NCBI RefSeq assembly: GCF_024972735.1
Contig: NZ_CP087723.1
Coordinates: 2,480,001 to 2,544,000, forward strand
Direction of reading: 5' to 3'
Source: Halalkaliarchaeum sp. AArc-CO
GTDB lineage: Archaea > Halobacteriota > Halobacteria > Halobacteriales > Haloferacaceae
DNA length: 64,000 nt
A program made the position numbers and the translations under genes. Below the pieces are notes generated by a model. The model was not told where the DNA came from. It did no database searches and saw nothing but the letters and a program-made list of their open reading frames with translations. Below are positions 1-34,279 of the stretch, one piece after another; the first letter of the stretch is position 1; the number at the start of each line of letters is the position of its first letter.

Positions 1-1621
1 CGCGTCCTACTACGCCCACGCCGGCCCCGGCGTGCTTCACATCCGCCCCCTCATCAACACGAAAACCGTCGAGGGGACCGAGGACATCGAATCGATCGCC
101 GAGGGGATCACCGACCTCGTCGTGGAGTACAACGGTTCGATATCGGGCGAACACGGCGACGGACGCGCCCGGACCCAGTGGAACCGGAAGCTGTACGGCG
201 AACAGCTCTGGCAGGCCATGCGGGAGTTGAAGACCGCAGTCGATCCCGACTGGATACTGAATCCGGGGATGGTGTGTGGCGACGTCAAACTCACCGAGAA
301 CCTCCGGTTCGGTCCGGACTACGAGTTCGACTTCCCGTTCGAGCCGACGCTGAACTGGGAGAACGACAACGGATTCCAGGGAATGGTGGAACTGTGTCAC
401 GGCTGTGCCGGCTGCCGTGGCGACCAGAAACACACCGGCGGCATGATGTGTCCCACCTACCGGGCGGCCGAAGAGGAGATCCTCTCGACCCGGGGGCGGG
501 CGAACATGCTCCGGAACGCGATGAACGGCAACCTCGAGGACGACGTGCTGTTCAGCGACGAGTTCGTCCACGAGGTGCTGGACCTGTGTGTGAGCTGCAA
601 AGGCTGTATGAACGACTGCCCAAGCGGCGTCGACATGGCGAAGCTGAAGGCGGAAGTGGAGTACCACTACAAGCGAAAACACGGCGGCGCCAGCCTCCGC
701 GACAAGCTGTTCGGCAACGCCGGGACAATGTTGAAGGTCGGCAGCGCCTTTGCCCCCCTTTCGAACGTCGCGATGCGGCTGCCCGGCGTCGGAACGGTGA
801 TGGAAAAGACGATCGGTATCGCCCGAGAGCGGGCGTTACCGGAGTTCAAACGCAACACCGTCGTCGACTGGTTCGAGGACCGCGGCGGCCCAGCGGTTCC
901 GGAGTCGGACGCCGATCGCCGGGTGCTGTTCGTGGTGGATCCGTACACGAACTACATGTACGTCGAACGCGGGAAGGCGGCGATCCGCGTGCTCGAGGCG
1001 GCGGGCTGTCGCGTCCAGTTGCCGGAGGGGGTGACCGACACCGGTCGGCCGGCGTACTCGAAGGCGCTGATCGACGTCGCCCGCGAGACGGCCCGCGAGA
1101 ACGTCGCCCGGCTGGCGCCGAAGATCAGCGAGGGCTGGGACGTCGTGACCGTCGAACCATCGGCGTCCGTGATGTTCCAGTCGGACTATCCGGACCTGAT
1201 ATCGGGGGAGAGCGTCGACGCCGTCTCCCAGAACAGTTACTCGACCCTCGAGTATCTGGACACGTTCGGGCTCGTCGAGAACCTGACGTTCGGCGCGGTC
1301 GACGAGTCGCTCACCTACCACGGCAACTGTCTGCACAAGGCGACCAAAAAGGGTCACCACGCCGCGACCGTGATGGCACAGGCCGGCTACGACGTCGATT
1401 ACCTCGACAGTACCTGCTGTGGGATGGCCGGCTCGTTCGGCTACGAGGCGGAACACTACTCGCTGAGTCAGTCGGTGTTCGAGATCCTGCGCGGGCAGAT
1501 CGACGACAGCCCCGGCGACACGGTGGTCGCCACCGGCGCATCCTGTAAAAAGCAGATCGGCGACGGGCTCGGCGAGAAGCCGCCCCATCCGGTGCAGATG
1601 GTCGCCGACGCCCTGGAGTAG
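1..1621 (+). CDS. FAD/Fe-S oxidoreductase, D-lactate dehydrogenase-like (3' part only)
   Basis: The reading frame is open from base 2, so the gene begins upstream of the window and only about 540 C-terminal residues are visible. The visible start is the end of an FAD-linked oxidase domain (SGEHGDGRAR). A GlpC-like region follows, with two 4Fe-4S motifs (CHGCAGC near base 395 and CVSCKGCMNDCP near base 590), then a cysteine-rich CCG domain (CCGMAGSFGYE near base 1418). In this family the FAD half oxidises a 2-hydroxy acid and the Fe-S half passes electrons on. The neighbours (lactate permease, LutC, LutAB) make D-lactate the likeliest substrate. Its C-terminal third resembles that of the LutAB fusion at 4501-6783, so the two share ancestry there. 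The family call is firm; the substrate is inferred. Confidence 0.88.
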   Translation, partial: ASYYAHAGPGVLHIRPLINTKTVEGTEDIESIAEGITDLVVEYNGSISGEHGDGRARTQWNRKLYGEQLWQAMRELKTAVDPDWILNPGMVCGDVKLTENLRFGPDYEFDFPFEPTLNWENDNGFQGMVELCHGCAGCRGDQKHTGGMMCPTYRAAEEEILSTRGRANMLRNAMNGNLEDDVLFSDEFVHEVLDLCVSCKGCMNDCPSGVDMAKLKAEVEYHYKRKHGGASLRDKLFGNAGTMLKVGSAFAPLSNVAMRLPGVGTVMEKTIGIARERALPEFKRNTVVDWFEDRGGPAVPESDADRRVLFVVDPYTNYMYVERGKAAIRVLEAAGCRVQLPEGVTDTGRPAYSKALIDVARETARENVARLAPKISEGWDVVTVEPSASVMFQSDYPDLISGESVDAVSQNSYSTLEYLDTFGLVENLTFGAVDESLTYHGNCLHKATKKGHHAATVMAQAGYDVDYLDSTCCGMAGSFGYEAEHYSLSQSVFEILRGQIDDSPGDTVVATGASCKKQIGDGLGEKPPHPVQMVADALE

Positions 1622-1640
1622 CGACAAGCAGTTTGCCGTC

Positions 1641-1650
1641 GCTTTTTCCG
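1641..1650 (+). terminator. T-tract terminator after the FAD/Fe-S gene
   Basis: A run of five T follows a GC-rich stretch about 20 bases after the stop codon. Archaeal termination commonly uses such T tracts without a hairpin. Confidence 0.4.
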
Positions 1651-1690
1651 TACGATCGTTCAAAAATCCGATCAAATTCCGTCGGTGGAA

Positions 1691-1739
1691 CCGCGAGCCC
1701 CGAGCCCCGAGCCGCGAGTCCCGAGCCCCGAGCCGCGAA
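1691..1739. repeat. CGAGCCC / CGAGCCG minirepeat
   Basis: Six to seven near-tandem copies of a 7-8 base unit (CGAGCCC, CGAGCCG, CGAGTCC) fill the gap between two convergent genes. It is probably a simple low-complexity expansion. No function is evident. Confidence 0.6.
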
Positions 1740-1761
1740 CCGGAAAGATCCTGTGTCGGCC

Positions 1762-3552
1762 TCAGAACAGGCCGGGGAACAGGATGTAGCTGAACAGCAT
1801 CGTCAGGATGCCCACCATCAGCGCGTAGTAGAACAGCGGGATCAGGTTGAGCCGCATCACGCGACCCTCCTGCCCGACGAGGCCGACGGTCGCCAGCGCG
1901 GCGACCACGTTGTGGATCGCCACGAGGTTCCCGATCGCGCCCCCGACCGCCTGCGCGCCGACGATGATCTGCGTCGAGATGCCCAGTTCCTGTGCGGCCG
2001 TGAACTGGAAGCCGCCGAACGTGATGTTCGAGACGGTGTTCGATCCGGCCATGGCCGCCCCGAGCGCGCCGATGAGCGACGCGACGAACGGGTAGGCGCT
2101 CCCGAGCGTGCCGGCGGTCGCGACCGCGAGCACCTCAATCATGCTCTGATCGTACGCGGCAGTCCCGGCGAACGTCTCCGGATCGACTGCCGGCAGCCCC
2201 GAGGAGAGCATGACCTCTACCATCGCGATGACGAACACCAGCGCGATGAACGGCGAAACGATCTTTTCGGCCGCCTCGCCCCAGGCGTCTTTTACCTGCT
2301 GGCCGTTCATGCCGAACAGCGGGATCGCGATGATCGCCGACAGGATGAGCCAGAATCCGGGGACGTTAACCCAGGCAATACTGTCGGAGAGACCGGTACC
2401 GAGGATGTTCTCCCACACCAGTACCATTCCGATCGTGACGTCGCCGATCGTGACGCCCAGGTCAGCGTCGTTGATGAAGCCGCTGATCGGATCGGAGACA
2501 CGCGTCACTACGAGGAGAAGGACCAGGATGATGTACGGAGACCAGGCTTTGAGCAGTCCCATCTCCCCGGTGTCCGCGTTCGACCGGACGCCCTCCGCAC
2601 CGGGTTCGATCGTCCCGACCCAGTGGCTGGGCCACTCTTCCCTCGGCGGGAAGTCCCACTCGTCGTCGGGGAGGAGGTATCCTCTCCGCAGCAGGGCCAC
2701 CGTGATCCCGCCACCGACCATGGAGCCGATGAGTGCTGGGAATTCTGCAGTGATGAACCACGCCGAGATCCAGTAGGGAATCGCGAAGATGATCCCGGCG
2801 AACAGTGCCAGGGGAACGACTTCTTTTACCGGTTCAAGCGACCGGTCGTCCGGATCGCCGAAGAAGTACACGATCATCCCGACGGCGAACAGTGGCATCA
2901 CGAACCCGACAAGGGCGTGGTAGGTCGCCGCCCAGGCCGCGACGTCGTTCGAGAACTGCGTGACTGCCACCGCCTCGTCGAGGCCCGCATACGGGGCCCC
3001 CTCCATGATGCGATCGATGTACGGCGGCCCGTCGAGCGGGTCCCGTATACCGATGACGATCGGCGTCCCGACCGCGCCGTAGGTGACCGCGATGATGTGA
3101 CCGATCAGTGCCGCGACCACCGCCGCGAGCGCCGGGAAGCCCAGCGCGAGCAGCAGCGGTGCCACGACCGCCGCGGGCGTCCCGAAGCCTGCCGCCCCCT
3201 CGATGAACGTCGCGAGGAAGAACGCCAGCAGGATGATCTGGACGCGTCGGTCGTCCGATATCGCGGCGAACCCCTGGTTGATCACGTCGATCGCCCCCGC
3301 CTGCATCAGCGTGTACAGCAACACCAGCGCGCCGAAGACGATCCAGAGGATGGTCAACGCCGTTATGATTCCGGTTATCGACGCTCCTGCAAGCCACAGG
3401 GCGGAGTTTTCCCACACGAAGTAGCCGACGAGCAACGCCGCGATCCACGCGATCGGCATCGCGCGGGTCGCCGGCCACAGGAAGCCGACCAGCAGTATCC
3501 CGGCGATCAGTAACGGCGACGCCGCGAGGAGTAGTTCGACTGCGCTAACCAT
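1762..3552 (-). CDS. lctP: L-lactate permease (LctP family)
   Basis: This is a 596-residue polytopic membrane protein with about a dozen or more hydrophobic segments, typical in length for LctP/LldP lactate permeases (about 530-600 residues). Conserved-looking stretches include the EGAAGFGTPAAV segment and the GSNTVSNITFGGFQ segment, both hallmarks of the family. It would import lactate, and possibly glycolate, with protons or sodium. It sits between the FAD/Fe-S lactate dehydrogenase-like gene and lutC/lutAB but on the opposite strand, so it shares the 3553-3953 control region with lutC as a divergent unit. The ATG at 3552 gives a first membrane segment close to the N-terminus. Confidence 0.93.
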   Translation of the reverse strand: MVSAVELLLAASPLLIAGILLVGFLWPATRAMPIAWIAALLVGYFVWENSALWLAGASITGIITALTILWIVFGALVLLYTLMQAGAIDVINQGFAAISDDRRVQIILLAFFLATFIEGAAGFGTPAAVVAPLLLALGFPALAAVVAALIGHIIAVTYGAVGTPIVIGIRDPLDGPPYIDRIMEGAPYAGLDEAVAVTQFSNDVAAWAATYHALVGFVMPLFAVGMIVYFFGDPDDRSLEPVKEVVPLALFAGIIFAIPYWISAWFITAEFPALIGSMVGGGITVALLRRGYLLPDDEWDFPPREEWPSHWVGTIEPGAEGVRSNADTGEMGLLKAWSPYIILVLLLVVTRVSDPISGFINDADLGVTIGDVTIGMVLVWENILGTGLSDSIAWVNVPGFWLILSAIIAIPLFGMNGQQVKDAWGEAAEKIVSPFIALVFVIAMVEVMLSSGLPAVDPETFAGTAAYDQSMIEVLAVATAGTLGSAYPFVASLIGALGAAMAGSNTVSNITFGGFQFTAAQELGISTQIIVGAQAVGGAIGNLVAIHNVVAALATVGLVGQEGRVMRLNLIPLFYYALMVGILTMLFSYILFPGLF

Positions 3553-8756: not shown

Positions 8757-8830
8757 GGGCCGGTAGCTCAGTTAGGGAGAGCGACGGACTCTTAATCCGT
8801 CGGTCGGGGGTTCAAATCCCTCCCGGCCCG
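8757..8830 (+). tRNA. tRNA-Lys (CUU)
   Basis: A 74-nt cloverleaf: acceptor stem GGGCCGG/CCGGCCC, D-arm GCTC/GAGC, anticodon loop CTCTTAA (anticodon CTT), T-arm GGGGG-TTCAAAT-CCCTC, discriminator G. No intron and no encoded CCA. Confidence 0.97.
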
Positions 8831-8954
8831 CTTCTGCGACGACCGAAGGGAGGAGCGAAGCGGCTACGGAGGGATTTGAATCCTCCCAGTCGCGCGCAGC
8901 GAACGGAGTGAGCGAGCACGTCCGGTTTCGGTTCAAATCCCTCCCGGCCCGCTT
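8831..8954 (+). repeat. tRNA-Lys 3'-end duplication cassette
   Basis: Right after the tRNA lies a cassette of about 121 bp. It contains an inverted copy of the T-arm (GAGGGATTTGAA, 8869-8880), then a palindrome-rich core (from CAGTCGCGCGCAGCGA at 8887), and ends with a perfect 25-base copy (8930-8954) of the tRNA 3' end (8809-8833). The core aligns with the core of the cassettes behind tRNA-Arg (about 40 of 48 positions by eye). This looks like an insertion that regenerated the tRNA 3' end, as site-specific integration into tRNA genes does, but it has no room for an integrase. Confidence 0.8.
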
Positions 8955-21725: not shown

Positions 21726-21829
21726 GGGCACGTAGCTCAGCCAGGATAGAGCGTCGGACTTCTATCCCGTCCAGGTTGGTGGGTGGGGAAGACATCCGAT
21801 GGTCGTGGGTTCGAATCCCACCGTGCCCG
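21726..21829 (+). tRNA. tRNA-Arg (UCU) with a 29-nt intron
   Basis: The mature tRNA is 75 nt: acceptor GGGCACG/CGTGCCC, D-arm GCTC/GAGC, anticodon stem TCGGA/TCCGA, anticodon TCT, T-arm GTGGG-TTCGAAT-CCCAC, discriminator G. An intron follows position 37 (21765-21793). No CCA is encoded. Confidence 0.93.
21765..21793 (+). other. tRNA-Arg intron with bulge-helix-bulge splice sites
   Basis: The canonical archaeal splice motif is visible. A 4-bp helix CTTC (21759-21762)/GAAG (21788-21791) is flanked by 3-nt bulges TA^T (21763-21765) and AC^A (21792-21794). Three GC pairs inside (21766-21768 with 21785-21787) close the intron loop. The splicing endonuclease would cut after 21764 and after 21793. 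Confidence 0.88.
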
Positions 21830-22192
21830 TAAGACCGGCGAGCGTAAGCGAGCCGTGTCGAACTTTCTCGAGGTGGGATTCGAAGCCTATCAGTCGCGCG
21901 CAGCGAGCGACGCGAGCGAGCACGTCTGATTTCGGTTCGAATCCCACCGTGCCCGTAAGACCGGCGAGCGTAAGCGAGCCGTGTCGAACTTTCTCGAGGT
22001 GGGATTCGAACTACGCGAGACGAACGCAGTGAGTCTCGCCATCGAGTTCGAATCCCACCGGGTCCGTAAGACCGGCGAGCGTAAGCGAGCCGTGTCGAAC
22101 TTTCTCGAGGTGGGATTCGAAGCCTATCAGTCGCGCGCAGCGAGCGACGCGAGCGAGCACGTCTGATTTCGGTTCGAATCCCACCGTGCCCG
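21830..22192 (+). repeat. Three tandem tRNA-Arg 3'-end cassettes (126, 111, 126 bp)
   Basis: Unit 1 is 21830-21955, unit 2 is 21956-22066 and unit 3 is 22067-22192. Units 1 and 3 appear identical. Each begins TAAGACCGGCGAGCG, contains an inverted T-arm copy (GGTGGGATTCGAA), a GC-rich palindromic core and ends with the tRNA 3' end (TTCGAATCCCACC plus acceptor and discriminator). Unit 2 has a different core and altered acceptor bases (GGGTCCG for CGTGCCCG). The inverted and direct T-arm copies could pair over 13 bp. The core of units 1 and 3 matches that of the tRNA-Lys cassette. Confidence 0.85.
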
Positions 22193-22272
22193 TGAGATGC
22201 GAGGCGCGAGCACAGCGAGCGCCTCGAAAAGCGAGCGGCGAAGCCGCAAGCGAGGTGAGTGAACCGACACGC

Positions 22273-34061: not shown

Positions 34062-34207
34062 TGGACTCGCTGGGATTTGAACCCAGAGGAAGACGGTCGC
34101 CTCGCTTCGCTCGGCGCTGCGTCTTCCAGGGCTTCAAATCCACGCGTCCGCAAGGCGGACGCTCAGCTCGTCCATTCTCGCTCCCTCGTAAAACTCGGTC
34201 GCTCCGA
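34062..34207 (-). repeat. tRNA-Ala 3'-end duplication cassette
   Basis: Downstream of tRNA-Ala (to the left) is a cassette with an inverted T-arm-like copy (about 34127-34145), a GC-rich palindromic middle with a CGTCTTCC/GGAAGACG stem, and at its far end a perfect 25-base copy (34062-34086) of the tRNA 3' end (34208-34232). The overall plan matches the Lys and Arg cassettes, though the middle sequence differs. Confidence 0.75.
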
Positions 34208-34279
34208 TGGACTCGCTGGGATTTGAACCCAGGGCCTCTTCCTTGCGAAGGAAGCGATCTACCACTGATCTACGAGCCC
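34208..34279 (-). tRNA. tRNA-Ala (CGC)
   Basis: A 72-nt cloverleaf on the minus strand: acceptor GGGCTCG/CGAGTCC with one G-T pair, D-arm GATC/GATC, anticodon stem CTTCC/GGAAG around TTCGCAA (anticodon CGC), T-arm CTGGG-TTCAAAT-CCCAG, discriminator A. Confidence 0.93.

Follow-up and report, generated by a model that had tools for sequence, protein, structure and literature searches.

Tandem hairpin cassettes that end in a copy of the host tRNA 3′ end: a class-wide repeat family behind haloarchaeal tRNA genes

In E. coli, the 178-bp tyrT repeats (rtT RNA) reportedly lie in tandem behind a tRNA gene, each of them with the terminal ~19 bp of the tRNA. Casposons integrate at tRNA genes, where the tRNA end is the target that becomes duplicated, and in A. 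boonei the T-loop motif recognised by the casposase is TCAAATC (PMC6614799). The attC sites of integrons are imperfect hairpins bounded by an inverted and a direct core, and are recognised via their structure and extrahelical bases (PMC3053210). Here we describe short cassettes behind haloarchaeal tRNA genes, covering their anatomy, the exact repeat, their tailoring to the local tRNA, the covariation of their hairpins, their class-wide distribution, the sharing of modules and the turnover of copy number.

The window, that is the whole 64-kb stretch of DNA that was analysed (C2:2480001-2544000 in a 3.18-Mb haloarchaeal genome), contains a tandem array of three units behind a tRNA-Arg(TCT) gene and two further cases of a cassette, at tRNA-Lys(CTT) and tRNA-Ala(CGC). 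The features are as follows, in window coordinates.

21726-21829, + strand: tRNA-Arg(TCT), the host gene, with a 31-nt intron (cmscan RF00005, 61.8 bits)
21810-21829, + strand: positions 54-73 of tRNA-Arg(TCT), the repeated block
21830-21955, + strand: unit 1, 126 bp
21830-21876, + strand: 47-nt spacer of unit 1, which units 2 and 3 carry unchanged
21872-21884, + strand: GGTGGGATTCGAA, the extended complementarity around the inverted T-loop of unit 1
21877-21884, + strand: inverted T-loop of unit 1, GATTCGAA
21885-21935, + strand: type A hairpin module of unit 1, 51 nt
21936-21955, + strand: direct copy of tRNA-Arg positions 54-73 in unit 1, 20/20 identical
21956-22066, + strand: unit 2, 111 bp, with the same spacer, a different 36-nt hairpin (CGCGAGACGAACGCAGTGAGTCTCGC) and a direct copy identical at 18/20
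22067-22192, + strand: unit 3, 126 bp, with the same sequence as unit 1
22198-22266, + strand: GA-loop hairpin-like stretch after the array (CGAGGCGC-GAGCACAGCGA-GCGCCTCG...), judged by its sequence only and probably remnant spacer material
8757-8951, + strand: tRNA-Lys(CTT) (8757-8830), then one cassette with a type A hairpin and the tRNA's own 3′ end
34062-34279, − strand: tRNA-Ala(CGC), then one cassette (67-nt spacer, 51-nt hairpin)

The preliminary description of this DNA had reported three units of 126, 111 and 126 bp behind the tRNA, each ending in the tRNA's own 3′ end and containing an inverted T-arm copy able to pair with the direct one over 13 bp, with units 1 and 3 looking identical, and our analysis bears this out in full. 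Every unit is closed by TTCGAATCCCACCGTGCCCG, with two substitutions in unit 2, and the 13-nt inverted copy GGTGGGATTCGAA pairs perfectly with the direct copy in each unit, the pairing extending to 15 nt in unit 2. The 152-nt copies that include units 1 and 3 differ at three positions, two in the preceding 3′ copy and one past the end; since all three fall outside the units, the units themselves are identical over 126/126. When the array region was folded and compared with dinucleotide shuffles, it reached z = −7.9, and 0/100 shuffles folded as well. The type A module of unit 1 is common to the cassettes of Arg(CCT), Lys, Gly, Pro and Val tRNAs in this genome. The host gene was missed by ARAGORN run on the window, and its intron (window 21762-21796) is apparently also present in a congener (G001), in which the gene has the same length of 104 nt.

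A BLAST search of unit 1 against its own genome returned about 16 strong matches beyond the array, all of them just downstream of other tRNA genes and on the same strand. When each of the 44 tRNA genes detected was inspected on its 3′ side, 15 proved to be followed by complete units, 29 in total, and degenerate units were seen as well. Because unit 1 matches so many sites behind other tRNA genes, the BLAST search and the flanks together ruled out that the array is a single local duplication.

Each unit consists, in this order, of a spacer (30-94 nt, often with a hairpin of its own), an inverted T-loop GATTYGAA, an imperfect hairpin as a module of ~28-67 nt between the inverted and the direct T-loop, and a direct copy of positions 54-73 of its own tRNA. 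The repeat thus comprises 20 nt, from T54 through the discriminator N73, in a unit of 87-190 bp. Both edges are sharp: 5′ of T54 there is no excess of matching to the own tRNA (2.34 nt, compared with 2.22 nt in the shuffled null), and matching usually ends at the discriminator, with runs of 20-22 in 81/130 copies. In this genome, the direct copy is identical to the own tRNA at 20/20 positions in 26 of the 29 units. RNA-templated copying of a mature tRNA was ruled out, as the copied discriminator is not followed by CCA. Inverted repeats are only moderately enriched in the spacers: perfect stems of ≥8 bp occur in 19%, compared with 1.4%. A one-base insertion in the copied T-loop (TTCACAATC) recurs at Asp, Pro and Thr(CGT) in this genome and at Thr(TGT), Phe and Pro in G001. 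These TTCACAATC copies occur at different tRNAs together with different hairpins, as though a portion of the T-loop moved along with the hairpin module; a crossover inside the T-loop therefore fits better than a clean 20-bp target duplication. We also observed a second class of cassette in which an inverted copy of the acceptor stem replaces the T-loop (L228, L244 and L250, as well as the flanks of Gly(TCC) and Arg(GCG) in this genome).

The pattern GATTYGAA-N38-68-TTCRAATC was found in 365 of 394 sampled genomes of Halobacteria, with up to 23 copies per genome. The reversed-pattern control gave 0 throughout this sample, and in the same phylum beyond Halobacteria the pattern occurred 0-2 times, similar to the control and hence at chance level. 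Chance palindromes were ruled out by this control and by shuffles. Our locus set comprises 119 named loci from many genera with 152 hairpins, of which 130 are followed by a copy that matches the upstream T-loop and 3′ end at 18/21 or more positions, compared with 11/152 when loci were mismatched; a same-strand tRNA was called upstream by Aragorn in 122/137. Viral or plasmid spread was considered and rejected: IMG/VR yielded one chance match in an unrelated AT-rich sequence, phages yielded none and plasmids one, the sole plasmid match lying inside a plasmid tRNA array.

Cassettes are tailored to the tRNA that they follow and at the same time share their modules. The A/G variant of the inverted T-loop agrees with that of the own tRNA in 173/187 cases, compared with a mean of 98 and a maximum of 127 in 2000 shuffles. 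Of the 29 units in this genome, 23 have a similar counterpart at another of its tRNA genes; a complete Lys(TTT) cassette, for instance, is 85% identical over 103 nt to one at Arg(CCT), each with the T-loop variant and the 3′ end of its own tRNA. Single arrays often combine a constant spacer with differing hairpins; units 1 and 2 of the window and the units at Gly(GCC) are examples. On plasmid NZ_CP119561.1 of Haloarcula halophila, a tRNA-Cys-like gene (2427-2569) carries a spacer and a type A hairpin exactly between positions 53 and 54; the insert adjoins the left end of the repeat, and the duplication is absent. The same plasmid has about 20 tandem tRNA genes at 359-3492, upstream of a gene for a TROVE-domain (Ro60-like) protein.

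Comparison of related species revealed turnover at conserved loci. Between two congeneric species, most cassette-bearing tRNA loci differ, in the number of units or the type of hairpin, with conserved flanks: Leu(CAA) has 4 units in one and 1 in the other next to the same flank, and Lys(CTT) differs in spacer and hairpin next to a similar flank. Within the family, the tRNA-Arg(TCT) locus is empty in one case (L231) and holds one unit in another (L233), and alignable sequence begins at the same base. At tRNA-Asp, 26 congeners with an alignable flanking gene have 0 (8 genomes), 1 (14), 2 (3) or 3 complete units (1), belonging to several unrelated hairpin families. Since 'empty' Asp loci often retain spacer-like hairpin debris, loss may be as frequent as gain. 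The preliminary description had proposed a tRNA-targeting mini-element and had pointed to the 3′ flanks of other tRNA genes and to empty sites in relatives as places to look. Similar cassettes are indeed present behind many other tRNA genes, and precise empty sites and varying unit number and content exist at conserved loci of the species compared; the missing integrase and scant cargo also hold, and mobility is inferred from comparative genomics. That description saw the array at tRNA-Arg, but missed the class-wide scale, the exact repeat 54-73 and the exchangeable hairpin module.

The hairpins bear the marks of selection or correction, and several lines of indirect evidence suggest that it acts on DNA rather than RNA. 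An alignment of 25 sequences contains 44 double-sided changes, compared with 12.1 after shuffling, and 97.7% of it is paired, compared with 14-37% when slid. In the inner helix of 134 hairpins the pairs are C-G, G-C, A-T or T-A, with G.T only 2 times and A.C 8 times; at the T-loop pair, T.G occurs 5 times and C.A 10 times, so that the tested pairs sum to G.T 7 versus A.C 18. An identical count in the tRNA stems of two genomes gave G.T 25 versus A.C 0. In the 25-sequence subset, G.U occupies 14/575 cells, and a single doubtful pair adjoining an internal loop accounts for 7 of these. Among the loops, C-GNA-G triloops flanked by tandem G-A predominate, not GNRA tetraloops, and the strand with the GNA loops is mainly the sense strand of the tRNA. 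This type of triloop is exceptionally stable in DNA (PMC4686876). It is the strong covariation, the absence of a G.U excess and the C-GNA-G triloops that lead us to read the hairpins as DNA. A cmscan of the array region at E up to 1 returned only the tRNA and one chance match, with no match to the RtT family. With neither a G.U excess nor a meaningful Rfam score besides that of tRNA, a conserved RNA family was rejected, and the absence of a G.U excess speaks against cassettes that act as RNA.

Which enzyme might move such cassettes was addressed at the level of protein families. Cas1 (PF01867) is absent from this genome (G000, the richest) and from the cassette-rich genomes G007, G276, G364, G151 and G191, and a casposase was therefore rejected as the general agent. 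An IS200/IS605-type (Y1/HUH) enzyme was rejected as the general agent on the same grounds, the Y1 transposase (PF01797) being absent from cassette-rich G007, G110 and G342. Tyrosine recombinases (PF00589) are present in 28/28 genomes tested, with 4-17 genes per genome where no cassettes were detected and 3-11 in cassette-rich genomes (28 genomes, phylogeny not controlled); found in all of these genomes and more numerous in the cassette-free ones, their presence discriminates nothing. A search of the 119 cassette loci with two local integrases gave no matching ORF, a search that could miss distant integrases. Three orphan cassettes do adjoin integrase genes, and at least two of them are stranded behind the attR of an element integrated in the tRNA. 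At tRNA-Ala of this genome and at L090, the integrase stands beside the orphan cassette because an element inserted itself into the tRNA, and the older cassette ended up behind attR; with no match to the two local integrases beside ordinary cassettes, an adjacent integrase was rejected as the cassette enzyme. The apparent element in tRNA-Ala(GGC) spans ~28.6 kb (G000:C2:1396568-1425167; L300, L301 and L303) with its integrase just inside attR, the former cassette behind attR and a second integrase gene ~80 bp beyond.

We tentatively read the units, members of a Halobacteria-wide family, as miniature insertion cassettes that are non-autonomous and target tRNA genes at or beside the T-loop, an interpretation to which we give somewhat less than an even chance. 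On insertion, the 20 bp that run from T54 through the discriminator would be duplicated; the copy of positions 54-73 that closes the cassette leaves the tRNA intact. As a repeat, the duplicated tRNA end would then allow units to be gained, lost and exchanged, so that tandem arrays arise; the hairpin would be recognised as folded DNA, its stems kept complementary, by a recombinase acting in trans. We infer the insertion origin and the recognition of a DNA hairpin, with a tyrosine recombinase as the most likely candidate enzyme. A dedicated tRNA-anchored array system is a bolder version that we consider conceivable but rather unlikely: a candidate recombinase would time and again capture folded-DNA hairpins beside the T-loop, with positions 54-73 duplicated as the repeat, combining a CRISPR/casposon-like duplication with integron-like recognition. 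Against insertion it must be said that copy number within arrays can change by ordinary recombination between 20-bp repeats and that modules can come to be shared by gene conversion, which is efficient in polyploid haloarchaea. The main rival, which we likewise regard as rather unlikely, is passive DNA dynamics: remnants of old att sites of integrative elements would multiply, disappear and become homogenised through recombination between the 20-bp repeats, through template switching at palindromes and through ectopic conversion, with no dedicated mobility. An integrative element whose crossover takes place in the T-loop has to carry precisely the T54-N73 block, and real integrative elements with tyrosine integrases occupy tRNAs of these genomes; moreover, the stems are nearly all Watson-Crick, as correction of palindromes would produce, and arrays vary by whole units. 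Such passive dynamics, however, explain poorly how the class-wide type A family came to stand behind most tRNA species, each time matched to the 3′ end and T-loop variant found there, and integrase remnants were not found at ordinary cassette loci.

Two other explanations were weighed. A structured RNA element, co-transcribed with the tRNA and functioning in regulation, stability or 3′-end processing, much as has been suggested for rtT RNA, would account for the strong compensatory covariation, the stable RNA fold and the placement of GNA loops mainly on the tRNA sense strand; yet the G.U excess expected by comparison with tRNA stems is absent, the triloops are of the DNA type, presence is erratic between close species and Rfam offers no meaningful match except the tRNA itself, and we consider this explanation improbable. 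Still less probable, in our estimate, is that arrays of tRNA 3′ ends serve as decoy landing sites which divert tRNA-specific integrases from the essential tRNA gene. The repeat does cover the usual target region of integrases, and the larger number of PF00589 genes in genomes without detected cassettes would agree with it (28 genomes, phylogeny not controlled), but the clearest integrated elements, those at tRNA-Ala of this genome and at L090, used the tRNA itself and stranded the cassette behind attR, and the hairpin is left unexplained.

A fast-evolving repeat family occupies the DNA just 3′ of many tRNA genes throughout an entire archaeal class. Should the cassettes prove mobile, haloarchaea would possess a recombination system specific to tRNA genes, with the tRNA end itself as its repeat; this would bear on how tRNA genes came to be frequent targets of integration and on the origins of arrays such as those of CRISPR and integrons.

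In the searchable literature, the coverage of which is incomplete with most subscription journals outside, we found no published description of the cassettes, in agreement with the earlier statement that no named family of this kind was known. Since no known family combines the features tested, we regard them as new as a family, as far as this incomplete literature reaches. The tyrT repeats are the closest precedent, the haloarchaeal cassettes likewise being tandem units with the host tRNA 3′ end, usually at 20/20; the tyrT repeats occupy one enterobacterial locus, whereas cassettes follow many tRNA genes per genome in a whole class, and we know of no inverted T-loop or conserved hairpin module in the tyrT repeats. 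The small mobile repeats of Haloquadratum, PATEs and MITEs are transposase-free haloarchaeal elements as well, some of 80-110 bp with inverted repeats, but the Haloquadratum repeats target other mobile elements rather than tRNA genes and show no target duplication (PMC3119063). Integrative elements targeted to tRNA genes (reviewed for archaea in PMC8371274) share with the cassettes the block of identity from T-loop to tRNA end, the restored tRNA and the target region; the cassettes differ in being 87-190 bp long and tandem, without integrase or genes, and in having hairpins common to different tRNAs. Repeated insertion would yield repeat-insert-repeat arrays, as in casposons and the growth of CRISPR arrays; the casposon target duplication, however, has a length of 14 bp and its start lies 8 bp past the motif, whereas the direct repeat of the cassettes is 20 bp and starts with the T-loop, and the inserts are short hairpins without genes, unlike casposons. 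Compared with integrons, cassettes are anchored by the host tRNA and lack gene cargo, and no IntI-like locus emerged from a search that was for PF00589 in general; their anatomy, as read from the nucleotides, is similar to that of attC sites, with hairpins that have an inverted and a direct core and are arranged in arrays.
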